From positions 1-36,848 of IMG/VR virus record IMGVR_UViG_3300031977_002769: a stretch of DNA of 36,848 bases; one strand, given 5' to 3'. The position numbers and the translations under genes are program-made. The stretch is from a virus. Position 1 is the stretch's first letter; every line of letters begins with the position of its first letter. The notes below the pieces were generated by a model that worked only from the letters and a program-made list of their open reading frames with translations, made no database searches and was not told the origin of the DNA. Shown in pieces: positions 7,401-35,759 of this stretch.

Positions 7401-10400
7401 AAGTATCTGTTGGATTGTTATATGGACCGTATTTATGATTCGATTGTGCTACTCTAAATGCAGTTTGAGTTACAACATCCTCTATAGTAACACCAAATCC
7501 ACTCCAAGTTAAATCAGTTCCAGCTTCTACGATAGTGGTAATTTTTTCTCCTACTTCAAAAGTTCCTGAGATCATTTCAATCTCAATCAACTTACTAATA
7601 CAAAATCTAGAAACATCAACACCATCAAAAAATGGGAATACTTGAGTGAAAGGTTTCATTCCCCTAGAGGTAAATTCAATATTTCTAGATCTCATGAACC
7701 GAACAATATTAGAACTTTTAATTGCATCACCAAGACTTTCGGTATCAATTTGTTCAGTTATAATTTGTTGTCTTCCACTTCTTCTCTGACTGGCAGTAAT
7801 ATCTGTGGTAGTTGTAGTCGTGGTTGCAGTATCCGTCGTTGTTGTTGCTTCTTCAATTCTAAAAGTATTAGGAACAGAAGTCCTATCAGCTCTACTCGGA
7901 TCAGATGCTTGGAATTCAGCTAGTGTGGCTTTTCTACGGGTTATATCTGTACTTGAGTTTGCAGATGTGCTGGTATCCACTCTTCTATTTAAATCTATAC
8001 CAGTAGTTTCCCAAGATCCCCAAACTACTCCAGTATCACCCAAACGTTCACCATCTGCATTAGTAGTAATTTCTGAATTTAATGCTTCTGCAACCCCCAG
8101 AAAAGAACCCTCCATTTCAACTGAATTAAGTTGCAATCTTTTAGTGTCAATCCACTGATCAGCAGTTGGATCTAACTTTATAGAACCAAAATAAGTTTTT
8201 ACTAAAAATGGGGTTACATTTTCAGTTCTAGTCGCAAATGGTTGATTTATCCAAGATACATCTGTGTAATCTAGAGAAATTACATCACCGCTTCTTTTTA
8301 TATTTGATCCAAAGATTGAAGAATACCTCTTATCTTTACTTACATCAATAGTATCACCAATTATAGTCTCGTTACCAACTTCCAATTCTACATTTGTAGT
8401 GTAATGAGAAGGTCTTAAAATTCCTCTAGTAGGATCTACAGAGTTTCTAACACCAATACTATTGTCCTGTCCAAGTCTAGTAGTGAAATTATCAACATAA
8501 AACCCAGATTTAAATCTATTAGTACCTGTCCCATCGTCAACAAATAAATTTTTAGTATCAGTTTCTAATAAAGATAAAGTACTATACTCCTCAAGATTTT
8601 TAATTCTATTCTCAAGTCTAAAGATATCTTTCATTTGATATCTCTTATGTTTTACAAACTCAACCTTAGCATCAGAAGAATTAAACAAATATGGTGGCAA
8701 ATGTACATTTGCAATATTCATTCCACCATCTACATTTGCTGGTGGTTGTGGATTATCTGAAGGAGTTCCATAATTAACTACAAAAGTTTTATCTTTAGTT
8801 AAAGATATCCTATCAATTCTTGGTAAGTAATAATCATACTTTAATGGAATTGATTCATCAGAAACCATAACTTTCGTTAAATCTGAAGATGAAGTACTAA
8901 TAGATCTACCATCAAATTCAAAGGGAGATCGGGAACCCTCAGAAACAGTGTAATCACTTACTCTAGGTCTAAAGTCAATTATATCAGTTAATCTTTTACC
9001 CTCAATTGATGGAATGTCTGATCCATAATCAAAACCATCATAAGAATTTACTGTTGTAAAATGACCAGTATCTGAGGAATCATAAAAATATCTAGAGAAT
9101 AAAACCTTTAATTTTCCTTTAGGTGCTTCCGCATCCTCTTTCCGTATAATTCTAGAATAATCATAAAAAGACAACTTTTGTCCACTATTAAACTTATAAG
9201 AATCAATAATATTATTACTTCCAATATCAATAGAATTAATTACTGCATTCACATTTGAAGTAGTGAAATCAACAATTTCATTTTCTTTAAATCTAGAATC
9301 ATCCTGATAAACAAATCCAATGCTAGAACCAGACTTTTGCTCTAAATAAATTGCTTTTGCATTACTAGTTCTTCCAATGATAGTTTCACCAATAATAAGA
9401 TCTTCGGAATTTTTATTAATTGTAGCAGATGGTATAACTGGATCTGAGGTATCTCTTGATTCAAACACACCATAAAGAATATGTCCATCTGGATAGTTTA
9501 AACATATTTCCTTATCCTGTACTCTAGTTCCATATGGATAATTTCCGAAAGAAAGTCCATCATCTTCATTTTGAGATGATGCGTTTGAAGATTTATTAAT
9601 TATAATGCTTTCTACAATTTTCTTTCTTTTTATTTTTGATTTTACTTTAGTTTGTTTTAAAGTTGCAGTTAGATATGCAACACCTTGAGCACCATTCGTG
9701 TTGGTAAATTTTACTTGAGTTAATCCTGCATTAGATTCAAAGTTATCTGCTGTTATATTTACTTGATTGCCATTAGTATCGATTAATATATATCTTTCTT
9801 CATCAAATGGCATAAATGTAGAATCTGTTGGAACATCTGCAGTGTTATATCCAGTATCACCATTACTGTCTATAATCATTATAAAATCTTTTCTAAAAAT
9901 AAATTCAGAATTTTCAAGATCTACAGATTTAACATTTTTATTAGGAACATCACTGAACAAAGCTTTATTTGATGATGTATTTCCACTAAACTTTTCTCTA
10001 GGAAGTTTTGCGGACAATACTTGTAAATCATTTACTGTAATATCCGAAGTTGGAAGATCACCATGGTTTACTCCAGCAACATTTGAAACAGCGTTAATTT
10101 CAATTGTTTTGTTTAAAACATCAACAGAAGTTACTTTTGCGTATGTTACGGAAGTAATTCCAGATTGAGTATATTGAACTAAATTTCCTGTGGTGACAAT
10201 TCCAGTAATTATAGATCCATTCACAGTTATCGTAGATACTCCAGCAGATTCTCCTGTTATTTCAGAATTTCCAATAAAAGAAGTTGGTATTTGCACTACA
10301 TTTGCTACATTCATAATACCACCAGATCCAACGGAAAAGGATTGTACATCGGAAAGAGAATAATTAGTGATGTCAGTTATAAACCTACCCTCATCATCCT

Positions 10401-12027
10401 GTGCTGAAGTAGACGATGACGTGCTTCCAAAACTAATAGGTTCTTTTTCTGAAAATTCCCCATTTATACTATAGACAGTTACTGCAGTACCGGCAGTAAC
10501 ATCATACTTTAAAAATCCAGTCGCACCTGTATATTTTCCAGTTACTAACTTTGGTGTTGTGATTGTAATTGCTTCATTTAAAGTTAAATCTGATTGTAAA
10601 TCAACATCGATTATTGTGGTATCCCAAATATTAGCATATAAATTTGTGGCATCATAACTACCACTTTCTAGAGCAATGTCATACATTCTTGCTCTTCCAA
10701 TTTCTTTTGCTGAGTTGACAGCATTATAAATTTGAGTATTGTTGTCTATTCTACTATCATATAAACTAACTATTTTAAAGTTTCCAAATGCATTATTATT
10801 AGAACCTGCTGCCCCTTTTATTGTATTTAAAGATAATGTAGGTCCAAACCCAACTTTTACTGCCTTACTATCTTCAGTCTTAGTTGTTCTTGGTTTTGGT
10901 ACATCTAAAAATGTTGGTGCATTAAATTCAACTTCATATCCTTTTACGTATGCTTTTCCAGGACTAATCTTATATACTGCAAGATCATCACTGGGTACAT
11001 TTCCTTGATACGTTAATGCATTTTCTCTAAAAATTCCATTATTTAACCCATTATCCAAACTCTCCTTACAATATGTTTTAAATGGTTTTACATAATAATG
11101 TCCAGATTCATCATAAGTTCTTCTTGCAAACTCATCAGCAAGCAAATTATATTGAGTATTTTTATTATTACTAATTCTTACTCTACCATTTTCAATAGTA
11201 GCTAATGGAACAAACGAAGTATCATTAAAATCAGTGAGAGGTTTTTTTGTTAATGTAGTTGTAATTTTTAAACGATCTGCACCAGGAGCAGAATAGTTAT
11301 TATATCCCTGTGCATTATCTGCTAATGTAGTGTCTTCATCTGCGGTTACAATTTCTTCATTTACTAAAAGACCAACTCTATAATTTGGAGTATTGGTATA
11401 TTGATCTAAAATTAAAATTTCATCTAATACATTTACAAATGTGCCTCTAATAAAATAAACTCCATTTGATATAGAAAATGCAGATCCAGTTGAAGTTGAA
11501 TTTGCTAAAATTGTTGAAGCAAACCCCTGATTTTCAGAAATAAAAGTATTGCCAAACTTAATTGCAGTTTCTGATACCAAAACTTCATTATCATCAAAAA
11601 CACTCTTCACTAAATCTTCAGTAGAAGATTCTAAGTAATCGACGTAAAGAGTAATATTTCCTCTTTCTGATTGATCTGAAGTTATTACTTTTTCAATTTT
11701 TGCTCTTATCCCTGAATTTTGTCCACGAATCTTCTTTCCAACTAATTCATTTAAATATAGAGAAACTGGGACTCCTAAAAAGTCACTGTTAATTTCTACA
11801 GAAAAAAAGTTAGACCTATATCTTGTCTGTCCTGGAATTACTTTAGAACCCTCTTTGAAAAAATGAGTTCCAAATTTTTCTACTTGATCCTGCAGTATAG
11901 ATTGAAGAGTCGTTAATTCTCTTGCCTGTACTGGATATCCAGGTTTAAATAATACCTTATGGTAATTTTTTCCCGAATCAAAGTCGTCAAAATATGGAGA
12001 TACGTTTAGATTTGTTTCTTGTGGCAT
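4432..12027 (-). CDS. Giant baseplate/tail structural protein with DUF4815-type N-terminus
   Basis: This 2,531-aa protein opens with NLNVSPYFDDFDSGKNYHKV and KPGYPVQARELTTLQSILQD, the signature of the DUF4815 family of phage structural proteins (recalled). It occupies the place of T4 gp9-gp12 and wac between gp8 and gp13, so it probably builds the outer baseplate or a fibre attachment. Residues about 1,390-1,415 are a Thr/Asp-rich linker with a long Thr run. Next come FMRSRNIEFTSRGMKPFTQV and FPFFDGVDVSRFC, a segment also common in such proteins. Gly-Tyr repeats (PGSGYTNG, GGFGYFKG) lie at about residues 1,950-2,010. A module with IGDEILKYTG lies near residue 2,145. The start is 9 bases after gp8. 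A fibre or receptor-binding role is inference. Confidence 0.8.
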   Translation of the reverse strand: MPQETNLNVSPYFDDFDSGKNYHKVLFKPGYPVQARELTTLQSILQDQVEKFGTHFFKEGSKVIPGQTRYRSNFFSVEINSDFLGVPVSLYLNELVGKKIRGQNSGIRAKIEKVITSDQSERGNITLYVDYLESSTEDLVKSVFDDNEVLVSETAIKFGNTFISENQGFASTILANSTSTGSAFSISNGVYFIRGTFVNVLDEILILDQYTNTPNYRVGLLVNEEIVTADEDTTLADNAQGYNNYSAPGADRLKITTTLTKKPLTDFNDTSFVPLATIENGRVRISNNKNTQYNLLADEFARRTYDESGHYYVKPFKTYCKESLDNGLNNGIFRENALTYQGNVPSDDLAVYKISPGKAYVKGYEVEFNAPTFLDVPKPRTTKTEDSKAVKVGFGPTLSLNTIKGAAGSNNNAFGNFKIVSLYDSRIDNNTQIYNAVNSAKEIGRARMYDIALESGSYDATNLYANIWDTTIIDVDLQSDLTLNEAITITTPKLVTGKYTGATGFLKYDVTAGTAVTVYSINGEFSEKEPISFGSTSSSTSAQDDEGRFITDITNYSLSDVQSFSVGSGGIMNVANVVQIPTSFIGNSEITGESAGVSTITVNGSIITGIVTTGNLVQYTQSGITSVTYAKVTSVDVLNKTIEINAVSNVAGVNHGDLPTSDITVNDLQVLSAKLPREKFSGNTSSNKALFSDVPNKNVKSVDLENSEFIFRKDFIMIIDSNGDTGYNTADVPTDSTFMPFDEERYILIDTNGNQVNITADNFESNAGLTQVKFTNTNGAQGVAYLTATLKQTKVKSKIKRKKIVESIIINKSSNASSQNEDDGLSFGNYPYGTRVQDKEICLNYPDGHILYGVFESRDTSDPVIPSATINKNSEDLIIGETIIGRTSNAKAIYLEQKSGSSIGFVYQDDSRFKENEIVDFTTSNVNAVINSIDIGSNNIIDSYKFNSGQKLSFYDYSRIIRKEDAEAPKGKLKVLFSRYFYDSSDTGHFTTVNSYDGFDYGSDIPSIEGKRLTDIIDFRPRVSDYTVSEGSRSPFEFDGRSISTSSSDLTKVMVSDESIPLKYDYYLPRIDRISLTKDKTFVVNYGTPSDNPQPPANVDGGMNIANVHLPPYLFNSSDAKVEFVKHKRYQMKDIFRLENRIKNLEEYSTLSLLETDTKNLFVDDGTGTNRFKSGFYVDNFTTRLGQDNSIGVRNSVDPTRGILRPSHYTTNVELEVGNETIIGDTIDVSKDKRYSSIFGSNIKRSGDVISLDYTDVSWINQPFATRTENVTPFLVKTYFGSIKLDPTADQWIDTKRLQLNSVEMEGSFLGVAEALNSEITTNADGERLGDTGVVWGSWETTGIDLNRRVDTSTSANSSTDITRRKATLAEFQASDPSRADRTSVPNTFRIEEATTTTDTATTTTTTTDITASQRRSGRQQIITEQIDTESLGDAIKSSNIVRFMRSRNIEFTSRGMKPFTQVFPFFDGVDVSRFCISKLIEIEMISGTFEVGEKITTIVEAGTDLTWSGFGVTIEDVVTQTAFRVAQSNHKYGPYNNPTDTFVKNPYNRTINIPELYSTTSTLLNIDTYSLADESTPQFKGNILNGMRLVGETSKAEARVVGKRLVTDRVGTIIGSFFVPSGNGSTPSFETGISNFKLTSSDVNSQIPGVITTLAEESFYSSGTANTIQETTLSLRNARVDTNDSFSESRQLTDSSSTSSTSVTTNVSTTPTGRYVDPLAQSFEVPDESGVFVSKLDLFFRTKDESLPVRIQLRTMELGLPTQKILPFSEVELIPENINLSEDGTVATTVTFESPVYLEGLREYAIVILSDSNEYNVWISQLGEFDVSTLSSEKNQSLVTTQSLLGSLFKSQNASTWTPSQYEDLKFELYRCEFVSSGFTQLFNSNLSESKEVTINNPLNTISQRVIVGFANTFTNDEVSIGLTAVNSGVNASDEASGIIVAFGSSIAGELTITNPGSGYTNGTFSGVTLNSLSGDGLNATADITISNNVAVAATISSGGFGYFKGEVLTPGTNGPSFGSGMQLSVGITTGNNSIILDNITGELATNRTIKVINSSGISTDFIKGTEMSPSNLITKSDGLTIKVFHRNHGLNTSSKATLKNIRSDVPTTKLTSNYPGDPVNTGTINISSNVNFTTYEGEDVAANNPGFVRIGDEILKYTGTTSTTLTGVVREQLSTIAHNYGSDTPVEKYELAGVSLCRINRDHDLSIVDETLLEDPIGPNHYHIKIDISDTRSGTLVDRSVSSLFRKLRLNSSKKSGGSASIDYNIVYEAAIPNIKQISPAGTNINSSIRTVTGKSINGSEVPYVDKGYQELLTNSINYFDSPRLIASRTNETQYLSDIPGKKSITVNLDMETTDTRISPVVDLSMTNITLINNIINSPISNYSTDPRVNSINEDPNKFMYVSNEIRLENSATSIKVILDGYISVNSDIRVFYSIGENSNTFVPFPGYSNIDSNDGSTIDVRSSDGSPDILTVKQDRLLHEPKFDDFISYEFTATELGEFKNFKIKIIGTTTNQAYPPLIRNLRSIALA

Positions 12028-12036
12028 AATCTTTTA

Positions 12037-13578
12037 TTAAAATTGCAAAACGACTTTGATGTCTTCTTTTTGGTTTTTGGATCGTGTAATTGATGGTCTA
12101 TTATCAATATAAATCATTTCTCCAGTATATCTTTTAACTTCAGGATTTGCTAATCCATCAGTAAATTCTTGTCCAAGATTATATGTGGTATTATTTATTT
12201 GAGTAGAGATCCCAGTAAATATAGTATCTATACCAACATTATTTGTTTCACCTTGTATTTGATTTGTTGAAGAAATAAATGCATTCAATGTATATCCATA
12301 TTGAGGAACATTACCACTTAAAGAACTAGATCCTGTACTAAATCCAACCGCATATCTATCTTGCCAATACTTTAATACTCCCGTAACATTATTAAAAGAA
12401 ACTACTCTTCCTACAGCAGTTGTTCCTGTACTTACTGTTTGAGTTATTGTAGAATTTGCAGCAAAACTGGAAGTTGTATAATCATCTAGTTTTATAGCAT
12501 ATGTATTACTTGCTTTATCTTTTGTTAATTTAGTATCTGTAGTACCAAATACTAAAGGATTTTTAATAATTCCAATTCTAGCAACTTTATTTCCCACAAT
12601 AAAATCAGGATCTAAATTATCATTTTCAATTCTAGAATAAATTAATATATTTTTAGCACCCAATTCACTATAAATGTCTGATCCATGTCCATTTGGAGGT
12701 GGAATTATTACATTAAATCTTGGTAATGTAGTGCCGGTTATACCTGCAGCAGCAAGGTCAACTGACCCAAAGGTATAACCACTTCCACCAGACGATACAG
12801 TAACTGATTCAACGTTATTATTATTACCAACGACAATAGTTACCTTTCCACCTGACCCATTGCCTACAATTGGAACATTAGTATAAGTTTTTGGATTTCC
12901 AAGACCCACACCCCTATTAGTAATGGTTACAATTTTTAATTGACCACTGTTTACATTAGAAGCATTATCACGAACTTTAGCAACATCCGAATTAGTATCC
13001 CAATTTGAAGGTACTGGAATATAATCAAGAGAATCAAACTTTACTATATCGTTTGGTTTCATAGAAAAAAGATATTTCCAAATATATCCATCTCCACTAG
13101 TTCCAGCACTTCTTGGTTCTAAATCTGTAAATGTTGGTTCATCAATAGAAGTTTTTCCACTTGGATTTTCTGGATCTACTCCATTATGAAGACAAATATA
13201 AACATTAAAATCACTATTAATTACATAAAAATTAGATGCATATAATGTGGTAGAATTGGAAGGTTTTGATAAATTATTTCTACTTATATCATGTCTGTAC
13301 ATATCATAACGAGTACCAGAACTCCATGCAATCTTTTTAATTACATGCTTTACATCTGAAGAATTTATCTTTTTTAACGCAATTATTGTATCCCAAATAT
13401 CTGTATAGTTATCGAAACTATCAATTGGTGATGGGGGAAGAGATTCCCAATCAGCATCATAATCTGTAGAGTTGGTCAAACCAACGAAGGCATAATAATT
13501 ATCTACAGTAGATCCTATAGAAGTAATAAAATTCTTCGCACTCAAAATTCTAAATTGATCTGTTATAATAGCAGACAT
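12037..13578 (-). CDS. 8: Baseplate wedge protein gp8
   Basis: gp8 is part of the T4 baseplate wedge. From memory of T4 gp8, three landmarks align: the N-terminal ITDQFR segment (residues 5-10), GDGYIWKYLFSM at 162-173 (T4 DGYVWEYLFEI), and the C-terminal GEMIYIDNRPSITRSKNQKE with a beta-strand end (residues 486-513; T4 GEMIYMENRPPI). Length is 513 against 334 in T4. The excess lies mainly between about residues 205 and 485 and includes a Gly-Tyr repeat (SSGGSGYTFGS). Position between a giant wedge gene and the DUF4815 giant agrees with the T4 order. A late-promoter-like motif lies 21 bases upstream of the ATG. Confidence 0.85.
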   Translation of the reverse strand: MSAIITDQFRILSAKNFITSIGSTVDNYYAFVGLTNSTDYDADWESLPPSPIDSFDNYTDIWDTIIALKKINSSDVKHVIKKIAWSSGTRYDMYRHDISRNNLSKPSNSTTLYASNFYVINSDFNVYICLHNGVDPENPSGKTSIDEPTFTDLEPRSAGTSGDGYIWKYLFSMKPNDIVKFDSLDYIPVPSNWDTNSDVAKVRDNASNVNSGQLKIVTITNRGVGLGNPKTYTNVPIVGNGSGGKVTIVVGNNNNVESVTVSSGGSGYTFGSVDLAAAGITGTTLPRFNVIIPPPNGHGSDIYSELGAKNILIYSRIENDNLDPDFIVGNKVARIGIIKNPLVFGTTDTKLTKDKASNTYAIKLDDYTTSSFAANSTITQTVSTGTTAVGRVVSFNNVTGVLKYWQDRYAVGFSTGSSSLSGNVPQYGYTLNAFISSTNQIQGETNNVGIDTIFTGISTQINNTTYNLGQEFTDGLANPEVKRYTGEMIYIDNRPSITRSKNQKEDIKVVLQF

Positions 13579-13598
13579 TGACTTATAGTTTTTTTATA

Positions 13599-13606
13599 TA
13601 TTTATC
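13599..13606 (-). promoter_or_regulatory. T4-type late promoter upstream of gp8
   Basis: On the minus strand this reads GATAAATA and fits NATAAATA. It lies in the 33-base gap after the 1,502-aa gene and 21 bases before the gp8 ATG, followed by an A/T-rich leader. This is one of the few gaps in the structural cluster wide enough to hold a promoter. Confidence 0.5.
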
Positions 13607-13611
13607 TCACT

Positions 13612-16600
13612 TTATAAACTGTTATAACTATCAGACCTTAATTGATTGACTCTTCTTATTATTGGTGTAGTATTAATTCCAACAACACCATTTGAGGTAT
13701 TTACATTAAATTCAGTGGTAACCCCTGAAGATGGTACTGTAACCAGTCCCCAACTATAATCACCAAGATATAAATTAGAAGTATCACCAATTCCAGTGTT
13801 ATTATTTACTTTAACAATAACCTTAAGCACCGAAGTATTTCCTATTCCTGGTACTTGTCCGGTTACAATGTTAGTTGTAACTACCTGATATACATTATCC
13901 AATCCAGTTGTTCCAATACCAATTGTTGATCCTGGGTCTGCACCAATACCATGAGTTTCTGAAGTTTTTGGTGAATATGTTGTTGGAGTATTTGAAACTT
14001 TAAAGAAATCTCCAAAACTTAAACTACTTAACGTAATGGCAGTACCAACAATATTAGTATTTCTCAAATATGAAGTCGTGGGAATATGTAACTCAAATTC
14101 TATTTGATCTGTAGCACCTTGTATTGACGCTGATTCTCTAATTGCAGAAATAATTCCATGATCTCCAGTATATGCTGCACCAACAATAACGTTTTTCTTT
14201 ACCTTTGGTGATTCAATTAAAACTAATGGAGCCTGAGTCGTAGTGTATCCAGTTCCTGCATTAGTTACTGATATAGAACTTACACTGTCACCACTTAAAG
14301 ATGCCACTAATGTTGCTTTTGTTCCAAGTTGTGAATTTGTTATCGATACCTCGGGTGTAGAAACATACCCAGATCCACTATTACCTATAGATATACTCGA
14401 TATGGTTCCATTGGAAGAAACTACAGCAGTAGCACTTGCAGAAACTAATGTCAAATCATTATCAATAATTTCTATTTTACCATTTACAGTTGATGTAGTA
14501 TTTTCAAGATCAGAATCAAAAATAGATTTGGCACCATCTGTGTATATTTTAGTGGTTCCTATTCCAACACTCCTTAAAATGTGACTTGTAGGTTGAATGA
14601 ATGCTTCATATTCAGATCTGTTCTTAGTAATTATTTTACCATCAACCACGGAATCATTTCTTTGCTTACACCATATAACAGGTCTCTGGAAACTCAAATC
14701 ACTAGTAATTCCAACAGAATTATATGGTGAGGTTTCTACTAAATCTGAGAGAAGTATGTTACTTACTACACGAGTTTTTTCTAGCAAATCAATTTTATTA
14801 CCAACCAATCTTAAAGTATCTCCAGTAGTAATTGTTTCAGTGACTTCAACATTAGTAACATCAATATCTGGAGTACCTTTATAGAATATTATAGAACATT
14901 TATCTTTTTCCTTTGGAGCTTCTGAAAATTCTATAAAACTCCCTCCATCAAAAGTATATGCATAACTTGGATCTTGAAGAACTCCATTAACAAATACAAG
15001 AATAACATAACTCAAATCTACAAAAGACCCATCTCCAGATTCTATTGAAAACTGTTCTCCATCATTTTTTATTGGAAATCTTTTACGAGTTCCATCAAAT
15101 AATGACTCAATAGTATCTAAAGTTTGAAGTTCACCAACACTCCAGGCAGAAAAACTATCCGTATATGTCCTATCAACTATAACAGAAAAATTTTCAAATG
15201 TATATGAAGTATCTGTAGGAATACCAGTGGTTCCTCCAATGTCTAATGTAAGAATATCATTTTGCTTATATCCATATCCAAAATTCTTTATAGTAAAGTC
15301 TATAATGCTAGATCCTTGACCAACAACAATATCTACAGTTGCCTCTGTCCCAAGACCAGATGAATTTTGATATTTAAGATTTAAATTTGAATAAGATAAT
15401 GGATCATCAAACACTACATCTGGTGGATTTGTATTAGTATATCCAGACCCTGGATTTGTAATCGCAATACTTACAATATGACCATTTTCTACTGCTGCAG
15501 TACCAATAAATTCAATATTAGGAATACCAGTACTTGATGTTTGAACTCCAACATTGATTGTAGTCTGAATACCAATCCTATAACCAGATCCACTATTACC
15601 TATAGATATATTCGCTATTGTGCCTGCAGAAGACACTATAGCAGTTCCACCTGCAGCAACTAAAGGTTGATACCCTAATCCCCCACTAGACCCCAGTGAA
15701 ACGATTATACCACCCCTAGGAACACTGGCATTATTAGGGTCATATGATATGGAGGTTGCTGTTCCTGTGAAATTTATATCAGTTGTGTCTGAAGTTTCAT
15801 TTAATGTGTAATCAATATCACCTATTTGTAATACTCCATTAACCACAACAAATGCATTTGACGTTGAAAATCCTGCTACTTCACTTCCTGCATTTTTGAG
15901 ATTGAAGGATTTAGTTTTTGCATCGAAATTGGCACTTACGTCATCAAAAAGATAATTATTATTATACACATCTTGATTTAAAGATGAATTTCCAGTTCTT
16001 GTAAATACTCTACCTTGGAAAGAAGATCTTATATCAACATCACCGTTAACTTCATCATATATTGGACCATATGGAGCATCTGAAAAATGTATCTGGGATG
16101 CAACTATATTATAAGAACCAGTAACCTTTGTTATAGTATCTCCACTACTGTGTGATGATATCCCTGTCCCCATAAATGCTCTCTGAACTTCTACAAATGT
16201 AGTGCTACCTACACCGACTGCAGAAATTTTCATAATTTCATCACCAATTTTAATCAAGTCACTACTAAAAAATGATGTAATTCCCGAAAATTCTGCAACT
16301 ACGTCTAATACAGGAAAATCTTTCACTAAAGATTCTGTAATTGATGTATTTACAATAGGTGACTGAACAACATTATCTAAAAGAATGAGTGCCTTTGCGT
16401 TTTGATTTTGAGTAGTGATGTAATGATTCTTACCTAATCCCACATTAGTAAAATTGATTAATGATTTTGAAAACGCATCTTCAGGACTAGTACACAGTCC
16501 AATTCTATCATTATCCTGCTTATAAATGTATAAATCACCACTCAATTTATCAGTTGTTCCTGCTCCAGCAATAAAAGTTGATTCGATTTCAATAGATGCA

Positions 16601-24100: not shown

Positions 24101-25730
24101 TAGTATCTTTATATACATTTAGAACATCTGTTAAAAATCCATTATCGTATTTACCAATTAATTTCTTAACACTCAGTATTCTTTGATCATTGCCATTTAA
24201 CTCTAAGTTTTGAACATTGAATACTCTTCCAGGAACAGTTTCATTAGAAATGAATACATCTCCAACCGATTTTTCAGTAATTGTCAAATTACCGTCAACA
24301 TAAGAATACTCAACCTCAACTAAATCTCCATTATATAATCCATTATCATCAATTGTCGTAATTTTATACTTATTATTTCCTATCTTTAAATATTCAGAAA
24401 CATTACATTTGACACTGACATTGAATATCCAATTTTTATCTTTAGGATCCTCACTAGTATATCCAAGATTAATAATTCTACCAACGTCACCCTTATCATA
24501 ATAGATATTTGGTTCTGATATATCTACATCAGAAAGAACACCAGTTACTTTAAATCTAATTTCAGATCCATTCTTATCATACCCAAAAGCATATGTATTA
24601 ACACCAACGACACTAGTTCTAGGAATACTTAAATCAATACCTTTACAATTTAAAAATTGATTTACAGTAGTACCATCATAGGATATAATAGTATCATTAA
24701 AAGATATTTCACCTTTCTTTGGAAATCCAATTGTAGAATCTACAGAAATTTTATCAGAATTTATTTCAACATCATCTAGTACTGATGTTTTTGGATGAAT
24801 AGGAAGATCTCCAAAAACAGATCCTTGAACAGATATATCTTTATCAAAATCATAATCTAACATTAGTGTGGTATATTGAATACCATCTCTGACAATCTTT
24901 TTAGTGTCTGTTACAGTTCCAAATGCTCTAGTAATACTATCATATCCATCAAATTGATTCTGTTGAATAGTTTGATTTAATAAGTCTTCTGGATTCCCCT
25001 GAACAGATTCTACAACAATATTACGAGTTACTCGATACTGTGCATCAGAGGGTCTGAATAAATCTTTTCTAGGTAAAACAACTTCTACATCCTTTCCATA
25101 TAATACTCTGAAAAGGATTTCAAAAGATCTCTCAGATCCCTTTGAAGAATAAAAATCTTTTGATTGTTTTACAAATATGTTTTGATTTAAGTCACTATCC
25201 AATTCACGATTTTCAAATCCAAACGCAAATTGACCTTTAACCTTATTAAAAAATTCTTTGAGGAATAAAGAACTTAGATTTTTTACTGTAGATCCATTTG
25301 CATGATTAACAGTTTCACTTGAAGAAAACGTAAAGTCTTCAGAATTTCCTACAGAATATTCAGTGATCCCACTAAATCCCCTACTACAATCAATAAAACT
25401 AGTGCTGGTTTTTGATTTATATAAAATAATTTCATTATTTACTAAGATAAGACCATAAGACTTTGGAAAACCCTCAGTAGTGCTTACACTAATAGTATCA
25501 TCAAATCGATTAACCTCATTGGTTAACGTGGTCGTCTCTACAACATTATATAATTCATTAGTTTTGATGTATTGATCAATATTCTGTATAATATCTAATG
25601 GAGATCCTTTAGATTCTAATGATTGATAATACTCAGTAAGGAGTTCAGAAACTAGAGGAAAGTCATCTCTTACATAAGATGGTAGTTGACTTTCTACAAC
25701 GGAACTGATTTTTATTCTAGTCTTTTCCAT
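18129..25730 (-). CDS. Giant baseplate wedge-region protein with YHYH domain, gp7 position
   Basis: This 2,533-aa protein directly follows gp6, the position of T4 gp7 (1,032 aa). The N-terminus (VESQLPSYVRDDFPLVSELL) and a segment near 185-230 (SKGSERSFEILFRVLYGKDV) are typical of the corresponding cyanophage protein. Around residues 1,225-1,320 it contains GWSYDGNPIYGPYGYD, then SGYEL, PLGHFVEDY and PDYPNGVYAYF, the pattern of the YHYH domain found in secreted and structural proteins. At least eight Gly-Tyr-type repeats (DNPGSGYKN, NQGGVGYGS, NGGENYTAPP and others) occur before and after it. The C-terminal part has a DSDYYQYFSYALKS segment. It starts 3 bases after gp6. gp7 homology itself was not shown. 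Confidence 0.75.
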   Translation of the reverse strand: MEKTRIKISSVVESQLPSYVRDDFPLVSELLTEYYQSLESKGSPLDIIQNIDQYIKTNELYNVVETTTLTNEVNRFDDTISVSTTEGFPKSYGLILVNNEIILYKSKTSTSFIDCSRGFSGITEYSVGNSEDFTFSSSETVNHANGSTVKNLSSLFLKEFFNKVKGQFAFGFENRELDSDLNQNIFVKQSKDFYSSKGSERSFEILFRVLYGKDVEVVLPRKDLFRPSDAQYRVTRNIVVESVQGNPEDLLNQTIQQNQFDGYDSITRAFGTVTDTKKIVRDGIQYTTLMLDYDFDKDISVQGSVFGDLPIHPKTSVLDDVEINSDKISVDSTIGFPKKGEISFNDTIISYDGTTVNQFLNCKGIDLSIPRTSVVGVNTYAFGYDKNGSEIRFKVTGVLSDVDISEPNIYYDKGDVGRIINLGYTSEDPKDKNWIFNVSVKCNVSEYLKIGNNKYKITTIDDNGLYNGDLVEVEYSYVDGNLTITEKSVGDVFISNETVPGRVFNVQNLELNGNDQRILSVKKLIGKYDNGFLTDVLNVYKDTNSDIRYVTSNSIPKYQVDLNINQFKYNLNGNFTDDKITINNHGFFTGDVIAYNGSSSGISTSIYYVKKESDNEIKISRTRLDIENSNFISTTSSLSGDTISLFRFSKNDNNALSLDGQRLVRSIETPLNDGIEYDTLSGTTGILVNGVEILNYKSPDNVYYGPIKSIDVISTGDNYDIITPPVITVSDDVGVGASIFCAVEGKLERIDILDPGFNFTSNPVISISGGGGIGAKATARLVTYDHESFINASDATIVVGSSHTIGFSTYHKFSTGESVIYQTGGSQAISGLSTASTYFVNVVNDFNITLHKNKSDALSGVSTISVENGVGNHSFKSTEKKKKLNAIVIDNPGSGYKNKKISVNSTGINTFTDTINVYSHPYQSGEIVKYFGSTETVVSGLAVTSYVVTRIDDKSFKLSSVGIGTTGKFYFYNSKKYINLTSSGVGTHTFNYEPITISISGSDDASNSNITPVLQGVFRGNLTSIYVNQGGVGYGSSEIINYNKQPDFILNKGINASVYPIVSGGTIKEVVVLNGGENYTAPPDIVLSGIGTGIGAILSPVISSDGILTEVKVINPGMNYTQSELRVEIIDPITDPSLKSYPQVWNINTVERLKGKNNRLITANKLNIDDSVIYEGISSKYELQCCHSYAPRNLRRKIYSKSVDDGVLRYKTDYSNDIVNTKKYHSPIIGWSYDGNPIYGPYGYDTIDNRKVRQMTSGYELLDQSDIPNRPSVNIFPLGHFVEDYSFKNSGDLDRHNGRYTVTPDYPNGVYAYFTTLSGDDISKTALDNDRDCKDPVFPYIIGNTYKSKPIPFNYESKSNQETFEFNENNLIRNTNSYNSFSETSSYEYFLSRENISDQNTVVQSASKGKINSIQIVYGGKNYKVNDVVNFDNAGTGGSGASARVEYLDGKSISQISQETRDITDVELYPIDSNTLIGICSDPHNLNDKQDINLNSLTRNDFSLNGIFNVGITSSQLLLNSPVAASTGLVTFFSVSGDLTKIEPNDVFTVDTEDITVLNVDLTSSRIRVLRTDDTVTHASYSSLVEKSRKFTIKSLYNLETKKYKFNKELYFDPSESLGIGTISSGIHTLSFSNPGSGITSIQIPTRSIYIRNHGLETNDELLYRDNGGTPITISQDGDATSTLADESTVFAAKITDDLIGISTFKVGLGTTGGFVGINTTDSILYFTAVGAGSTHSFTTRYSNVSKANVSISTVTVSTATTHKLQIGDEIFLTAKPGITTSIKIKYDEYNRRLIIKPRTVTNHNYSDNILTINDHGYTTGQKIVYTATAHVPTGLSNNGIYYVIVYDRNRIKLSESSYGTNSNTQEEISISLNRRSPTSPTVSEINPNIKIDKNQVVEFDLSDGSLSDSNGISLFDFNLYRDNNLSNVYLPVNSNRESKIIKTGTIGNVGAKVTINVDDEFPDRIFYQLDKIKNSIVYRDSEFNNSNTITFTNSPLNGKKKIIGVGSDTFEFLSGSDFRFSTYSETDGSFNYYTNSINETGTVKEIEITSGGKSYVKLPSISSITSATGSGIVAIPASNTIGRINKVKISEIGYNYPADKTLIPTIKFASMVRVEPLSTINTIEVISPGLNYITEPDLVVIDGFTNKLVSDAILDYDIESRSVSIVLNSKGFYDAEPRIVAVNNTNGLGIGSITYDSSSKQVTAYFTKQFSSVSEYPFEVGDNVYIEGITVANSTDKGYNSKNYDYNLFPITAVNASSGGSGASIVYSMSDYLTGSSEPGIAVTVRSSGRAISDKELPSFKITLKKNDFIVGENVKSNNNSGRIIKWNPLNEYLTVELIKDFKIGDTIIGSVSSSKASVKDIIKYETFYDFNSSSVVEDGWNRNTGYLNETSQRIFDSDYYQYFSYALKSEVPLQTWDQTVNNLNHTLGFKRFSNLVISSTPGSVGLAQTEATIGIADLNSTVDVECLGDFDLVTENHFYVESTLTSDEISFNSVKLKDFSNSNGNRVLSIDDISLEFNTNLSETFVTAFNI

Positions 25731-25733
25731 TTA

Positions 25734-27650
25734 TTACTTTCTTACTATGGATTCATTAACATAACTAGAAGATGTGATGTAATTTGCACCTGATGTATCA
25801 GATCCAGACTCAATATTATCTGGAATCACATTAACACTAACATCTCTTCTATGATCTATCTGAAGGTAAAGATCTTGGATACCCAGAACATCGTTAGATT
25901 CTGGTATCGCAGACAACTCGATGATTGGTGTTCCACCATTAGATTTTACTGTAGACAATATATTTAATGGATTTGTAATTACCTCACCTTTGACATAATC
26001 AACAATTCCAACATTACGTCTTACAATAACAGGATTTACATCTGATTCTAAGTAAAATAAGAAGAGTGATCCTGTTTTACGGTTTGCATTTGGTATATCA
26101 CCAAAATATACAGTATTTGATATACCACTTACAGTAAATCCAGAAGACTTTATATTATAACCAGACATACTCTTTATATGAAATTTATTTCTATAACAAA
26201 TTTCATATTCTGCAAATTGATTCTCAGAGATTCTTAAGTCTCTACGCATTTGTATGGTAGTAATATTCGATGTGATAGAGATATCACTTTCATCAATTAA
26301 CTTCTGATATTTACTATACTTAAACTTAGCACCATACTTATTAAGTTCCTCAGAGTCTGCATACTTATTAATATTATTTGTAATTTTAGTTCTCAATGCA
26401 TCAGCACTTGAAATTCTATTGGAATTATAATAAACATTAGACCCCACTTCAATATAAAGATATTTTAAATCTAATATCTCAGGAACAATTCCTGCAACTG
26501 AATATTTCTTAAGTTCTGCTTTGATATTATCCTTTACTCTATTTGACAAATAAGATCCGTAAAATGGTTTGATTGTAATGAAAACCTGACCAAATCTAGG
26601 AGGAACTAATTCTTCCCCACCAAATGCAGTAACTGATTCTGCTTCTGGGTAAATCTTAGGAATAATTACTTCGTAATCAGATGCAGTCACTGCTCTGTTT
26701 TGTGATGCATACAGTCTTGGTGCATAATTACGGATTGAATTAACAGATTCCACATCAGATCCACCTGTTGCAGGAACATCTGTAAGGATTGTAGAGATTA
26801 AAGCATTTACACTTCTACCTCTATTGTCAACTAAGATACCACTAAAATTAAAATTAGAAGATCCATTAGCTTCTGGACCATCTGTAACTATATACGATAC
26901 TTCAATAAAGTTATTATTATCTAACTTTTTACCAAATATCCCATCACCAAAAATAATTTCGTAGTATTCATCCTCTACTTCTTGTATAAAGAATATTCTT
27001 GAACTACTTGTTACATCCAGTAAACTAGATGATAGAATATACTTCGATGTTACATTACTAGATGCAGTGGGTCTTACCTTAACTTGAATCGTAGATGTAT
27101 CAATACCACGATTATTTAAAATGAATCTTTGATTTGGATTACTTTCATTTACAGTAAAAGAACTTGTAACATAAGTTCCTTCATGAATATCAATCGTATC
27201 AAATATTGCAACTCCTACATTATTACTTCTTGTTACCGGAACTGTAATATCATCATTTACTGAAAATGAAAAGGAAGTAGAACCAAATGTTCTTGAATTA
27301 AATGCAAGACCTTTTTTTAAGGTTAATGTAGATATGGTGGTATCAGCAACTTCAACATTAAAACTTACATTTGCTTTAGGAGACTTTCGAGATCTAGGAA
27401 GATATCCAATATTTCTTGCAAGAGAAACAACATTTTCTCTTAATGTTGCACTATCAATAAAAACTTCATTACTCACCATATTCGCATTATATGATGATAT
27501 GTATGTATTATATGCTAATACATCAATCAGTGTGGACAAATTTGACCCTTCAAAATCGTAATCAGTAAAATTTGAATTCGATTTCAAATAATCTTGAATC
27601 GAAGATTTTATTTGGTCAAAGTCTAGATTTGTAAAGTTGACTAATGCCAT
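25734..27650 (-). CDS. 6: Baseplate wedge protein gp6
   Basis: gp6 forms the ring that links the T4 baseplate wedges. The 638-aa length is close to T4 gp6 (660). The N-terminal LSTLIDVLAYNTYISSYNAN followed by EVFIDSATLRENVVSLARNI is the strongly conserved opening of gp6/baseplate J-like proteins. A central SVNSIRNYAPRLYASQNRAV with TASDYEVIIPKIYP is the typical J-like core (residues about 300-335). Its ATG overlaps the gp25 stop by one base (TAATG), so translation is coupled to gp25. It is followed by the 2,533-aa gene after 3 bases. This is one of the safest calls in the window. Confidence 0.92.
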   Translation of the reverse strand: MALVNFTNLDFDQIKSSIQDYLKSNSNFTDYDFEGSNLSTLIDVLAYNTYISSYNANMVSNEVFIDSATLRENVVSLARNIGYLPRSRKSPKANVSFNVEVADTTISTLTLKKGLAFNSRTFGSTSFSFSVNDDITVPVTRSNNVGVAIFDTIDIHEGTYVTSSFTVNESNPNQRFILNNRGIDTSTIQVKVRPTASSNVTSKYILSSSLLDVTSSSRIFFIQEVEDEYYEIIFGDGIFGKKLDNNNFIEVSYIVTDGPEANGSSNFNFSGILVDNRGRSVNALISTILTDVPATGGSDVESVNSIRNYAPRLYASQNRAVTASDYEVIIPKIYPEAESVTAFGGEELVPPRFGQVFITIKPFYGSYLSNRVKDNIKAELKKYSVAGIVPEILDLKYLYIEVGSNVYYNSNRISSADALRTKITNNINKYADSEELNKYGAKFKYSKYQKLIDESDISITSNITTIQMRRDLRISENQFAEYEICYRNKFHIKSMSGYNIKSSGFTVSGISNTVYFGDIPNANRKTGSLFLFYLESDVNPVIVRRNVGIVDYVKGEVITNPLNILSTVKSNGGTPIIELSAIPESNDVLGIQDLYLQIDHRRDVSVNVIPDNIESGSDTSGANYITSSSYVNESIVRK

Positions 27651-28051
27651 TATCTTACTGATTGTAATGCAAATGAAAGTTCTTGTGCTGGTACATTAAT
27701 ACCAACAATTCTATATTGAATCGTTACATTATATTGTAAATTATCAAAATTAGGTTCCACTCTTACTCTTATTAAATCAACCCTTGGTTCATAATTTTGA
27801 ATTGTATTTTCAATTTCAGATTGAATATTAATAGCAGTTATATCACTAAAGTTTTCAAATAACTGTCTACTAACTCTTGAACCTAAATCAGGATTAAAGA
27901 ATTTTTCACCAGGATATGTATATATTAAATTACGAATTGATCTTGCAACTGCAGTTTCATTTTTTACTGTAATTAAATCATAGTTAATTGGATTTACCTT
28001 TAGAGATAAACTAATATCTTTAAATGATTTACTTATTCTCTCTACAGGCAT
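27650..28051 (-). CDS. 25: Baseplate wedge protein gp25 (lysozyme-like fold family)
   Basis: At 133 aa it nearly equals T4 gp25 (132). Residues 34-70 contain AVARSIRNLIYTYPGEKFFN and PDLGSRVSRQLFENF, the core of the GPW/gp25 family, which sits at the baseplate centre and is needed for sheath assembly. Residues about 85-110 (IENTIQNYEPRVDLIRVRVE) complete the domain. It is the first gene of the structural cluster in the transcription direction. A NATAAATA-type late promoter lies 29 bases upstream, and its stop overlaps the gp6 start, marking the head of a long late operon. Confidence 0.92.
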   Translation of the reverse strand: MPVERISKSFKDISLSLKVNPINYDLITVKNETAVARSIRNLIYTYPGEKFFNPDLGSRVSRQLFENFSDITAINIQSEIENTIQNYEPRVDLIRVRVEPNFDNLQYNVTIQYRIVGINVPAQELSFALQSVR

Positions 28052-29877: not shown

Positions 29878-29906
29878 ATTTTACTCGTTTATTTAGTTTT
29901 TGTCAA
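29878..29906 (-). promoter_or_regulatory. Sigma70-type promoter for the glycosyltransferase gene
   Basis: The minus strand has TTGACA at 29,901-29,906, a 17-base spacer, and TAAAAT at 29,878-29,883, ending 24 bases before the ATG at 29,854. The spacer also contains CTAAATAA, a late-like sequence. The -35 overlaps the stop of the 63-aa gene. Confidence 0.6.
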
Positions 29907-30094
29907 TATGATGAGTTGTGTATATCTCGTCGATTCACCACACACTCTTCATAACTTAATTCGTTCTCATTATATTCTGTTTTCATTAATCCTACCATGT
30001 TAACTAAATTAGACCACGTTTCTTTGAACTTATCCTCCGTTAACGATGAATATATGCATTGGTCTCTTAGATATACATGATAGATTTTTTCCAT
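29903..30094 (-). CDS. 63-aa conserved small phage protein
   Basis: The protein starts MEKIYHVYLRDQCIYSSLTE and continues with DKFKETWSNLVNMVGLMKTE, ending in a polar SYEECVVNRRD region. I recall this opening (KIYHVYL.D.CI) from small proteins present in many T4-like cyanophages, always of unknown function. It is soluble with no membrane segment. Upstream is the long non-coding region with A/T repeats; downstream its stop overlaps the -35 of the next promoter. Confidence 0.75.
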   Translation of the reverse strand: MEKIYHVYLRDQCIYSSLTEDKFKETWSNLVNMVGLMKTEYNENELSYEECVVNRRDIHNSSY

Positions 30095-30102
30095 AAGACT
30101 TA

Positions 30103-30173
30103 AAAATTTTTACCGGAATTTTTTTATATATCGACTTATACACTCCAAAATTTTTACCAGAAATTTTTTTTAT
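30103..30173. repeat. Pair of direct repeats upstream of the 63-aa gene
   Basis: Two near-identical units of about 26 bases, each AAAATTTTTACC then GGAA or AGAAA and a long T run, begin near 30,103 and 30,147. The 44-base spacing is close to four helical turns. They lie in the leader of the 63-aa gene and may be regulator sites. Confidence 0.6.
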
Positions 30174-30341
30174 GAAAGTGAAATCACTCTCTCGTTTTGT
30201 CACCTCTGTAGGTTAGGGTAGTTAGAGGTTTTTATAACCGGGGGGGGGCATGGACCGCTAATAAGAATTAACAATTAATCGTAATAACTGTTAATAACGA
30301 ATAACTGCAGAAACGAATAAGTATTAGTTATTCGTGTTGGT

Positions 30342-30399
30342 GTTAATAACACTCAGAGAGTTTGTGAGTGTAATACGAAACCCACTGAGTGTTATTAAC
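30342..30399. repeat. 15-bp perfect inverted repeat with 28-bp spacer
   Basis: Left arm GTTAATAACACTCAG (30,342-30,356) is the exact reverse complement of the right arm (30,385-30,399). GTTAATAAC also occurs at 30,290-30,298, and ACGAATAAC pairs with GTTATTCGT just to the left. It ends 18 bases from the stop of the 49-aa gene. There is no T run, so it is not a simple terminator. Confidence 0.75.
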
Positions 30400-30417
30400 G
30401 AACAATAAGAACGAATA

Positions 30418-30704: not shown

Positions 30705-30738
30705 GTATCTTATAAGACTATTACATCTTATAAGATAC
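30705..30738. repeat. 13-bp perfect inverted repeat overlapping a gene end
   Basis: Arms GTATCTTATAAGA (30,705-30,717) and TCTTATAAGATAC (30,726-30,738) are perfect complements with an 8-base loop. Each arm contains the smaller palindrome TCTTATAAGA, so two operator-like sites lie 21 bases apart. The stop codon at 30,721-30,723 sits inside the loop. It is not followed by T, so it is not a canonical terminator. Confidence 0.75.
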
Positions 30739-30900
30739 ACAGATAGGAAGACTGAGATCTTCAACATACGATTTTACCTTCTCATTCTTATTCAAATCAA
30801 ACACTTTTTTCCAGTCAAGTTCATAAGGATTAAAATCCTCATTAACTTCCATCTCCAAAGTGATTCTGTACTTATTCTTTTGTCTGGTCTTGGAGATCAT
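30721..30900 (-). CDS. 59-aa small protein of unknown function
   Basis: The sequence after the chosen start is MISKTRQKNKYRITLEMEVN, EDFNPYELDWKKVFDLNKNE, and KVKSYVEDLSLPICVSYKM. It reads as a compact mixed alpha/beta protein with a basic N-terminus. Start 30,900 gives an ATGA overlap with the frame upstream; an in-frame ATG at 30,906 would add Met-Ala. A TTGACA-17-TAATAT promoter lies about 30 bases upstream of the start, so it can be expressed on its own. The C-terminal codons form part of a strong hairpin. The family was not recognised. Confidence 0.65.
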   Translation of the reverse strand: MISKTRQKNKYRITLEMEVNEDFNPYELDWKKVFDLNKNEKVKSYVEDLSLPICVSYKM

Positions 30901-31118
30901 TGCCATTGGATTTTTGAGCAGTGTATATCTATATTATCAAATTTCAATCCTGATGTCAAGAGTGTGCCAGTAATTTCAGTGTCCTGGGGTGCTTGACATT
31001 TTGGAGGGTTTGTGATATAATGCTCGCCAAGATCACAATAACCAGAAGCATTTAGATAGTAGTTACCAGGAGGATTAAGAGAACAATTAGTCAAGGTATT
31101 CAGAGATAAAAAGAACAA
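30897..31118 (-). CDS. Doubtful 73-aa frame, possibly a lipoprotein remnant
   Basis: The frame has no ATG; the only early start is TTG at 31,118. The N-terminal FFLSLNTLTNCSLNPPGNYY looks like the end of a lipoprotein signal with a Cys after LTN, but the positive n-region is missing. Upstream in-frame codons (KYGLIL) would supply one, but no standard start precedes them before a stop. Later cysteines occur at YCDLG, PPKCQ and IHCSK. Two promoter sequences of opposite direction lie inside it. It overlaps the next gene by an ATGA. It may be a decayed gene or non-coding sequence. Confidence 0.3.
   Translation of the reverse strand: MFFLSLNTLTNCSLNPPGNYYLNASGYCDLGEHYITNPPKCQAPQDTEITGTLLTSGLKFDNIDIHCSKIQWQ
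30931..30959 (-). promoter_or_regulatory. Sigma70-type promoter for the 59-aa gene (leftward)
   Basis: The minus strand has TTGACA at 30,954-30,959, a 17-base spacer, and TAATAT at 30,931-30,936. It points left, toward the ATG at 30,900. It is back to back with the rightward promoter starting 33 bases away. Confidence 0.6.
30993..31021 (+). promoter_or_regulatory. Perfect consensus sigma70 promoter on the plus strand
   Basis: TTGACA at 30,993-30,998 and TATAAT at 31,016-31,021 are separated by exactly 17 bases, with TGA just before TATAAT (extended -10). The predicted start is near 31,028, and transcription would run rightward, opposite to every gene here. No convincing plus-strand gene follows: only a 33-codon frame with no ribosome-binding site from 31,176. 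A non-coding RNA, a replication primer or an antisense transcript is the likeliest product. Confidence 0.65.
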
Positions 31119-31128
31119 AATAAGACCA

Positions 31129-31136
31129 TATTTATA
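31129..31136 (-). promoter_or_regulatory. Perfect T4 late promoter box
   Basis: The minus strand reads TATAAATA, identical to the T4 late consensus. A transcript would begin near 31,123, too close to the TTG at 31,118 for a normal leader. It may serve the 59-aa gene or the origin-like region instead. Confidence 0.4.
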
Positions 31137-31214
31137 CCCTTAAATATAACACCATTTTACATTTATTATTACATTATGAAAACATTAACAAATAAATGTT
31201 ATGATGAACACACA
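31137..31214. other. AT-rich tract, possible unwinding element
   Basis: This stretch of about 78 bases is very AT-rich, with AACATT/AATGTT inverted repeats at about 31,181-31,200. It lies between the rightward consensus promoter and the DnaA-like boxes. No gene is seen in it. Confidence 0.45.
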
Positions 31215-31235
31215 TGTGGAAAAACCTGTGGAAAA
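31215..31235 (-). other. Two DnaA-box-like nonamers
   Basis: TTTTCCACA occurs twice on the minus strand, at 31,227-31,235 and 31,215-31,223, separated by GGT. As I recall, TTTTCCACA is the consensus DnaA box reported for the Synechococcus elongatus origin (E. coli uses TTATCCACA). The pair abuts the stop codon of the 44-aa gene. Confidence 0.5.
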
Positions 31236-31370
31236 CTACATAAATTCCATCATATAGTAGTCCACAGTAACTTCTAATTGAGATGCAATCTCTTCAATAG
31301 AGTTCATCTCATCATTATCATTATCTTCCTCATTATGTTGAGTAAAGAGATCAAGAGTAGAATTGTTCAT
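31236..31370 (-). CDS. 44-aa acidic microprotein
   Basis: ATG at 31,370 opens a 44-residue frame that overlaps the upstream gene by ATGA, typical of coupled translation. The sequence is MNNSTLDLFTQHNEEDNDND, then EMNSIEEIASQLEVTVDYYM and MEFM. The second half (IEEIASQLEVTVDYYMMEF) has the length and pattern of a helix-turn-helix-like motif seen in small cyanophage proteins; the first half is acidic. It is the last gene of its operon. A regulatory role is inference. Confidence 0.7.
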   Translation of the reverse strand: MNNSTLDLFTQHNEEDNDNDEMNSIEEIASQLEVTVDYYMMEFM

Positions 31371-34550: not shown

Positions 34551-35759
34551 TTAACAAAAAACAGTTTTACCTTCATTGAAGACAACATTAACAACATTCT
34601 GAAGTTTTCTCTGTGTTGTCTTACCATGACCACTAGAAACAGGAACAATCACCTTTCCACATCTTTTAGAGTACATACTAAATTGACCAGGAGTAAGTTC
34701 ACCATTACTAATTGCAGTTCGATCTTCTTTTGCAATACGGATTACCCTTCCAATAGTTTGAAGCATCTCAATAGTTGGAAGATTGCGAAGCATAATGCAA
34801 TGAGTGAGACCAGTAACATTGATCCCCTCACCTAGAATGGAATGATGAAAGACAATGATCTTTTGGTTTTTATCAGCACCATACTCATTCAATCGTTTGA
34901 AGAATACTTCACGACTTACTTTGGTTTTGTTAATGAATGCCCCATACTTGCTGGTGATATGCATTACAATATAACCAAGATCATTAAGTTCTTTCATCAT
35001 GTCAGTTTGTGACAATGACTCAAAGATAATCTTTGTGGAAGGTGCAGCAACAAGAATCTTTGCATCTTCTTGATCAATATCTTTGACAATGCTGGTCACA
35101 TTAGTTGCATCAACTAGAGATGCATTTTCTTTAGTTCTCTGAAAATCATGTTCATACACCTCAACCTCAGGAGGAAGAATTGTACCAACAGAAAGTAATT
35201 CTTTTGCAGAAACAGAAACAATATGACTACCGTAAATGTCTGTGCTATTCTTCATGCTAGTTTTTGGAGTTGCAGTGAAGAAATAAGCATTATTTGCAAC
35301 CTGAGAAGTGTGAGCAATACCAACAAAATTAGAAGGTTTCACACTATGATGTGCTTCATCAAAATAAACAACATCAATATGAATCTCTGAAAGATTGATT
35401 TTATGTAGAGACTTGTAAGTGGTGAAAATAAAGTGATGCATATTCATTGCATCTGCAATCGCAGAATGATTTTGAATTTCATTCACTTTTGTTGTGGCAT
35501 CCTGACCACTATGAACATTGGTAATATAAACATTCTCATCTTTCATGAACTCACTGAAATCATCAGAAAGTTGCTCAGAAAGAAGAATACGAGGAGCAAC
35601 AATGACAAAAGTCATTCTGCTTTTAGAATTATTGATACGAGACTTCGCATCACTCATAAAGATAATAGTTTTTCCTGCACCAGTTGGGAGAGTAAGCAAC
35701 CCTTTGTTGTGATTTTTGAGTTGTGTTACTGCTCTTTCCTGATAAGGATAAAGATTCAT
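34551..35759 (-). CDS. SF2 DEAD/DEAH-box helicase (type III restriction-helicase-like)
   Basis: This 402-aa ATPase has Walker A LPTGAGKT at 24-31, motif II DEAH at 134-137, motif III FTATP at 161-165 and motif VI QTIGRVIR at 334-341; a Q-motif-like YPYQERAV opens the protein. It unwinds or remodels nucleic acid using ATP. It has the size of the ResIII-like helicases carried by T4-like cyanophages and is shorter than T4 UvsW (587 aa), so I do not call it UvsW. It is first in the block ending with the 66-aa gene, driven by palindromic promoter copy 2. Role in replication, recombination or host takeover is not decided. Confidence 0.85.
   Translation of the reverse strand: MNLYPYQERAVTQLKNHNKGLLTLPTGAGKTIIFMSDAKSRINNSKSRMTFVIVAPRILLSEQLSDDFSEFMKDENVYITNVHSGQDATTKVNEIQNHSAIADAMNMHHFIFTTYKSLHKINLSEIHIDVVYFDEAHHSVKPSNFVGIAHTSQVANNAYFFTATPKTSMKNSTDIYGSHIVSVSAKELLSVGTILPPEVEVYEHDFQRTKENASLVDATNVTSIVKDIDQEDAKILVAAPSTKIIFESLSQTDMMKELNDLGYIVMHITSKYGAFINKTKVSREVFFKRLNEYGADKNQKIIVFHHSILGEGINVTGLTHCIMLRNLPTIEMLQTIGRVIRIAKEDRTAISNGELTPGQFSMYSKRCGKVIVPVSSGHGKTTQRKLQNVVNVVFNEGKTVFC

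Follow-up and report, generated by a model that had tools for sequence, protein, structure and literature searches.

What is the role of a strong promoter that points against the genes on either side of it in a phage genome? This question is raised by a viral contig of 36,848 bases from IMG/VR (the entire stretch of DNA analyzed, referred to here as the window). An initial annotation, made without database searches, proposed that a non-coding region of this contig contains a divergent promoter pair, an AT-rich tract and two DnaA-like boxes, and that it may be a replication origin resembling oriF of phage T4 or, alternatively, a regulatory RNA locus. The window encodes gp25, gp6 and a helicase, a gene set of T4-like phages, and its nucleotide relatives are phages that infect Synechococcus and Prochlorococcus. 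On the basis of these genes and relatives we assign it to a T4-like cyanophage (Kyanoviridae). The only match to the helicase in the PDB was T4 UvsW (2oca), with an E value of 2e-6 over part of its length.

The rightward promoter was found exactly where it had been annotated (Table 1), and it opposes its neighbors, as the genes on either side are on the minus strand. No other 12/12 match was present in the 14.8 kb scanned, and a perfect promoter with an extended -10 element is expected just 0.0025 times per window at such a composition. The description of it as the only strong plus-strand signal needs to be relaxed, since an 11/12 match is present at positions 24661-24689, within a long coding frame. 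The back-to-back leftward promoter is also present, as is the AT-rich tract downstream of the rightward promoter, with an AT content of 79% at 31118-31213 relative to 68% for the whole window. The 100 bp at 31105-31204 fall within the least stable 0.33% of the window. Both boxes are present as well; the plus strand reads TGTGGAAAA, so that the minus strand carries TTTTCCACA, which is the DnaA box of most cyanobacteria (PMC4674748). The arrangement TGTGGAAAA-ACC-TGTGGAAAA is common to the window, S-CAM1 and S-CAM3. A 73-aa minus-strand frame that covers the promoter was rejected as a real gene, being encoded by only one near-identical contig. In the window and many of its relatives, the extended -10 element and the start-site core together form a spaced inverted repeat, TTGTGAT-N15-ATCACAA (30993-31038). 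This is perhaps an operator overlapping the promoter, although its left half is not kept in all relatives.

Table 1 Features of the candidate origin region and its neighboring genes in the window.
Feature	Position	Strand	Remarks
gp6, baseplate wedge	25734-27650	-	Left landmark; Pfam Gp6-like
gp25, baseplate wedge	27650-28051	-	Left landmark; Pfam GPW_gp25
61-aa gene	30721-30906	-	phrog_12516; function unknown; conserved left neighbor
Leftward early promoter	30959-30931	-	TTGACA-17-TAATAT; 10/12, TG before -10; predicted to drive the 61-aa gene
Rightward sigma70-type promoter	30993-31021	+	TTGACA-17-TATAAT; TGn extended -10; antisense to neighboring genes
Start-site / initially transcribed sequence	31027-31054	+	CCAAGATCACAA (31027-31038) plus CATTTA (31049-31054)
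AT-rich low-stability tract	31105-31204		Candidate DNA-unwinding element; contains TACATTTA
First DnaA box	31215-31223	-	TTTTCCACA
Second DnaA box	31227-31235	-	TTTTCCACA; direct repeat, 12-bp spacing
44-aa gene	31236-31370	-	End of right-hand operon; stop codon abuts second DnaA box
UvsW-like helicase	34551-35759	-	Right landmark; phrog_16, E 7e-61; Pfam ResIII; PDB 2oca

We searched for this region in other viruses. When phage records were searched for near-identical sequences, no match extended over more than 12% of the query, and the family was therefore sought with a start-site 15-mer and with relaxed patterns. A search for distant similarity gave a match to S-SCSM1 inside an unannotated gap, where a promoter is followed at the predicted start site by the sequence that the window also has there, GCCAAGATCACAATAA....GCATTTAG, and further down by TTCTCCACAGGTTTTTCCACA. 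Scanning 2.9 million viral contigs for CCAAGATCACAATAA, and afterwards for the -10 element plus CCAAGATCACAA, yielded ~100 loci. In these, the -35 element reads TTGAC[AT] or TTGCC, the spacer is exactly 17 long, and TGnTAnnnT is followed by the core after 5 bases. Many of the 54 bare 15-mer matches lacked a promoter and were rejected as chance. Related loci number ~130 in public viral contigs, in addition to many isolates, including S-PM2, Syn9, S-SM2, S-CAM1, S-CAM3, S-SCSM1, S-PRM1, P-TIM68, Bellamy and DSL-LC03. The element is unique in most genomes, with one strong match per genome, and the strict element pattern was not found in bacteria (84,980 species genomes).

An alignment of 62 distinct copies revealed conserved columns at GGG (-40 to -38), the -35 element, the 17-nt spacer, TGnTA...T, G at -5, G at -1, the core and CATTTA (+22 to +27), with no column conservation after +28. 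The invariance of CCAAGATCACAA in this alignment is partly an artefact, because the search pattern demanded the core, whereas CATTTA and the layout of the -10 element were not imposed. Variants of the core are found in the same place: CTTAGATCACTA in S-SM2, Bellamy and ~20 contigs, and CTAAGCCAAC in S-PM2, S-CAM3 and 10 contigs, with CCAAGACAGCTATAAG, CTAAGATGACTATAAG and CTAAGACTACAA at the matching place in DSL-LC03, P-TIM68 and Syn9, respectively. When loci were chosen by the box pair alone, ignoring promoters, the promoter element was found beside the boxes in ten cases; core variants are seen among these box-selected loci too. A leftward promoter was found in 51% of the relatives' flanks, compared to 9% of controls. 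The initial annotation had proposed aligning related phages to see whether the promoter and boxes, but not the overlapping frame, are conserved, and this pattern, with the 73-aa frame not kept, is what the comparison with relatives revealed. A lack of promoter conservation would have refuted it; instead, the promoter, start-site sequence, AT-rich tract and boxes are kept together, in one syntenic place, across the ~130 loci. As judged from their sequences, these parts, including the two boxes of the window, make up one conserved non-coding module.

The boxes are strongly concentrated at this module. Within -300 to +250 of the 62 elements we counted 180 copies of TTTTCCACA/TGTGGAAAA in 33 kb (5.4 per kb) versus 8 in 489 kb (0.016 per kb) elsewhere in the same contigs, a ~330-fold higher density. 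At least one exact box is found near 47 of the 62 elements, while for about a quarter of those from metagenomes no exact box is within reach. In the complete genomes of S-PM2, Syn9, S-SM2, DSL-LC03, S-CAM3 and P-TIM68, clusters of exact boxes are present only at the element locus, with a chance expectation of 0.003-0.07 box pairs. This locus is at 19.2-19.6 kb in S-PM2, 52.4-52.7 kb in Syn9 and 58.0-58.2 kb in S-SM2. Paired boxes are also present in S-CREM1, S-CAM1, S-RIM8, S-RIM2, S-H35 and Syn30, a few kb from gp25/gp6 where gp6 could be located, and are essentially confined to one locus per genome. No clear module was found in P-SSM2, P-SSM4 or ACG-2014f. In Bellamy the promoter part is present, but no exact box accompanies it. 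Neither the element nor the box pair was found in T4 or in the Pelagibacter phage Mosig, the latter being classified in the family of these cyanophages; the hosts of both are non-cyanobacterial. The TTTTCCACA motif alone is not specific, and was rejected as a cyanobacteria-specific mark, since triplets of it occur in many cyanobacterial genomes but also in other bacterial phyla. Downstream of the element, the 8-mers enriched in relatives are the boxes and the AT-rich TACATTTA/TTTTTAAT, and AT content climbs from a background of 62% to ~71% (76 relatives).

The number and position of the boxes vary. Marine genomes mostly have 1-3 boxes at a single place. Dense arrays, with up to eight DnaA boxes flanking the promoter on both sides, were observed in many contigs, several of them apparently from lakes. 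Boxes are upstream only in P-TIM68. Annotations at two of these loci appear to be in error. The tRNA genes in the S-PM2 record (NC_006820, 17414-19333) overlap coding genes as well as the box cluster, and their coordinates look wrong since ARAGORN detected no tRNA over the boxes. In Syn9, the box pair is covered by a small annotated gene, gp86 (52477-52635), which is probably a spurious gene call.

We then considered the genomic location of the module. Across the 130 element loci, gp25 was encoded on the opposite strand, to the left of the element, in 77/77 detectable cases, as were gp6 (73/73) and the 61-aa gene (51/51), and the helicase was to the right in 13/13, with the promoter antisense to all of these landmarks. 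Annotated isolates agree, with the element found in an unusually long gap upstream of gp25-gp6. The module is thus located between gp25-gp6 and the UvsW-like helicase, directed from gp25 toward the helicase, and stays there while the gene facing it beyond the boxes differs between relatives. In T4, gene 25 and uvsW flank oriF, whose primer RNA is transcribed from the gene 25 side toward uvsW. This positional parallel is strong. Common descent of the two sites is nonetheless not proven, because the orientation of gp25 is opposite to that in T4.

Other non-coding features lie near the module in the window. A near-perfect, very stable hairpin is present at 30330-30410 (z-score of -5 on the plus strand and -7 on the minus strand), in a region rich in GTTATTAACG-like repeats. 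The hairpin is real, and its weak, sub-threshold Rfam matches to tmRNA and mir-181 were rejected, as these names are surely due to chance. A second non-coding stretch, at 30190-30248 (CACCTCTGTAGGTTAGGGTAGTTAGAGG), is conserved and unannotated in P-SSM2, S-SM2, Bellamy, P-SSM5 and Sf-FS3. It lies ~100 bp upstream of a small gene (29903-30094) and may be a leader or a regulatory element. Upstream of the same gene, at 30103-30175, there are two near-copies of AAATTTTTACC[GA]GAAATTTTTTT.

How does the module compare with known origins and promoter cassettes? T4 oriF and oriG require ~100 bp, consisting of a promoter and an A+T-rich unwinding element, and their transcript forms an R-loop (PMC3016281). 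Like oriF (ori(uvsY)), the module has a promoter followed by an AT-rich tract, with a matching place and direction relative to gene 25 and uvsW. However, oriF uses a MotA middle promoter that doubles as the uvsY promoter and has no DnaA boxes, whereas the cyanophage module has an early, sigma70-looking promoter that opposes all genes in most genomes, as well as host DnaA boxes. A MotA-dependent middle-mode promoter, as in oriF and oriG, was not found at the module, which has a canonical TTGACA -35 element instead. The module also resembles T4 oriE, which combines an early promoter with short repeats, or iterons (PMC3016281), but the iterons differ from DnaA boxes and have no proven role. With cyanobacterial oriC, located next to dnaN, it shares TTTTCCACA boxes in AT-rich non-coding DNA (PMC4674748); it differs in having no adjacent dnaA or dnaN, usually only 1-3 boxes and a strong outward promoter. 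PeSL cassettes of T4-like phages are similar in having an early promoter in an intergenic gap in a region of gene exchange, but they are defined by a promoter with a stem-loop terminator, in several copies per genome, which the module does not meet, being single, antisense to genes, without a stem-loop and with boxes and an AT tract. At the sequence level, the module shows the promoter into the origin that is expected of a T4-type R-loop origin, the cluster of host-type boxes expected of a DnaA-dependent origin, and the place expected of a positional equivalent of oriF (between gene 25 and uvsW, with the predicted transcript toward uvsW).

Given the promoter, AT-rich tract and host DnaA boxes of this module, we propose an origin with an early host-type promoter and DnaA-aided opening. 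The best explanation of our observations is that 30993-31235 is a replication origin of a T4-like cyanophage, built like the T4 origins that combine a promoter with a DNA-unwinding element, with host DnaA boxes added; its origin function, transcript and DnaA binding are inferred. It remains a candidate only, with a probability of roughly 0.6, as there are no replication, transcript or binding data. As a candidate, the oriF-like origin suggested by the initial annotation is supported by the joint conservation of the parts, their synteny, the DnaA-box match and the placement relative to gp25 and UvsW. Early after infection, host sigma70 RNA polymerase would begin a short non-coding transcript at ~31027-31034 that enters the AT-rich tract, and host DnaA, bound to the TTTTCCACA boxes beyond the tract, would aid its opening. 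The transcript may stay hybridized as an R-loop, as in T4 oriF, or the open bubble may be loaded directly. The phage helicase loader, helicase, primase and polymerase would then assemble. T4 UvsW later unwinds R-loops (PMC3016281), and the UvsW-like helicase encoded nearby could, by inference, silence the origin in this way.

The absence of the module from T4 and Mosig, whose hosts are not cyanobacteria, speaks for this candidate. Speaking against it are the lack of a clear module in P-SSM2, P-SSM4 and ACG-2014f, the elements without an exact box, the variable box positions and the plus-strand genes that follow the promoter in S-PRM1, S-8S53 and S-8S55. No GC-skew switch was seen at the element in any of six genomes, but since almost all of their genes are on one strand, any switch would be hidden; GC and AT skew were therefore discarded as uninformative. 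A viable mutant of S-PM2, S-PM2d, lacks 9.5 kb (5,799-15,339) but retains the box cluster at 19.2 kb (PMC4503421). An essential role for this cluster is compatible with the deletion but is not tested by it.

Alternatively, the promoter may make a small regulatory or antisense RNA that targets the 3' end of the facing operon or acts in trans, with the boxes serving only to modulate it. The promoter is strong and its start-site sequence is conserved, there is mostly no plus-strand gene after it (the median length of the longest plus-strand ORF to begin within the first 250 nt is 32 aa), and cyanomyoviruses are known to make antisense RNAs, such as cfrI in S-PM2. In S-PRM1, S-8S53 and S-8S55 a plus-strand gene does follow, and the promoter there may therefore double as an mRNA promoter. 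However, no structure was found in the conserved part with Rfam (no match at 30931-31235), alignment folding or RNA folding; the RNA z-score is only modestly negative (mean of -1.24), which inverted boxes could cause. Column conservation does not extend past +28, and there is no common antisense target, since the facing gene differs between relatives. Furthermore, such an RNA leaves the AT tract and the 330-fold box enrichment unexplained. As the gene beyond the boxes changes while the module stays, we favor an origin and consider an RNA locus unlikely, without dismissing it.

Another possibility is that the boxes act as a sink for DnaA or place the promoter under DnaA control, stopping host replication or timing early transcription, with no phage initiation here. 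The presence of boxes near a divergent early promoter pair, and in lake phages of up to eight of them, upstream and downstream of the promoter, is consistent with this, and many phage copies would titrate DnaA. The 1-3 boxes at one place in most marine genomes are few for a sink, though, and neither the adjacent AT-rich tract nor the T4-like position is accounted for. We regard this possibility as rather improbable.

That the region is an ordinary early promoter region or a PeSL-like gene-shuffling promoter cassette, with incidental box matches, is highly improbable. Leftward early promoters are common beside the element and fit the 61-aa gene, and T4-like phages are known to have PeSL cassettes (cited in PMC4503421). 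Yet conservation and box enrichment, which cannot be incidental, already argue strongly against this, as do the single element per genome, in one place and pointing against genes, and the lack of a terminator-like stem-loop at the window's rightward promoter. A DNA-processing site other than an origin, such as a packaging or recombination start, would fit a single, syntenic, non-coding element but hardly merits retention, since it needs neither a strong promoter nor a host DnaA box and T4-like phages, which package by headful, are not known to need a strict site.

We found nothing on replication origins or DnaA boxes of T4-like cyanophages in the full-text literature, although subscription papers were outside this search and an earlier mention cannot be excluded. 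We put forward only tentatively the more specific proposal of a single master origin at the genomic place of oriF with a dedicated antisense primer transcript and host DnaA boxes, and it may well not hold. T4 replication is not known to need DnaA, and DnaA has been reported to be dispensable in some cyanobacteria. If our reading is true, these cyanophages recruit the host initiator whereas T4 does without it, and the conserved start-site sequence is a new origin signal. T4-like cyanophages rank among the most abundant viruses infecting marine cyanobacteria, and with a short, conserved and syntenic candidate that carries host DnaA boxes, the question of their replication origin can be tested directly in the cultured phages S-PM2, Syn9 and S-SM2. 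Such an origin would link phage replication to the host initiator, would provide a marker by which cyanophage genomes can be placed and compared, and would show how a T4-type origin may have altered upon a change of host.
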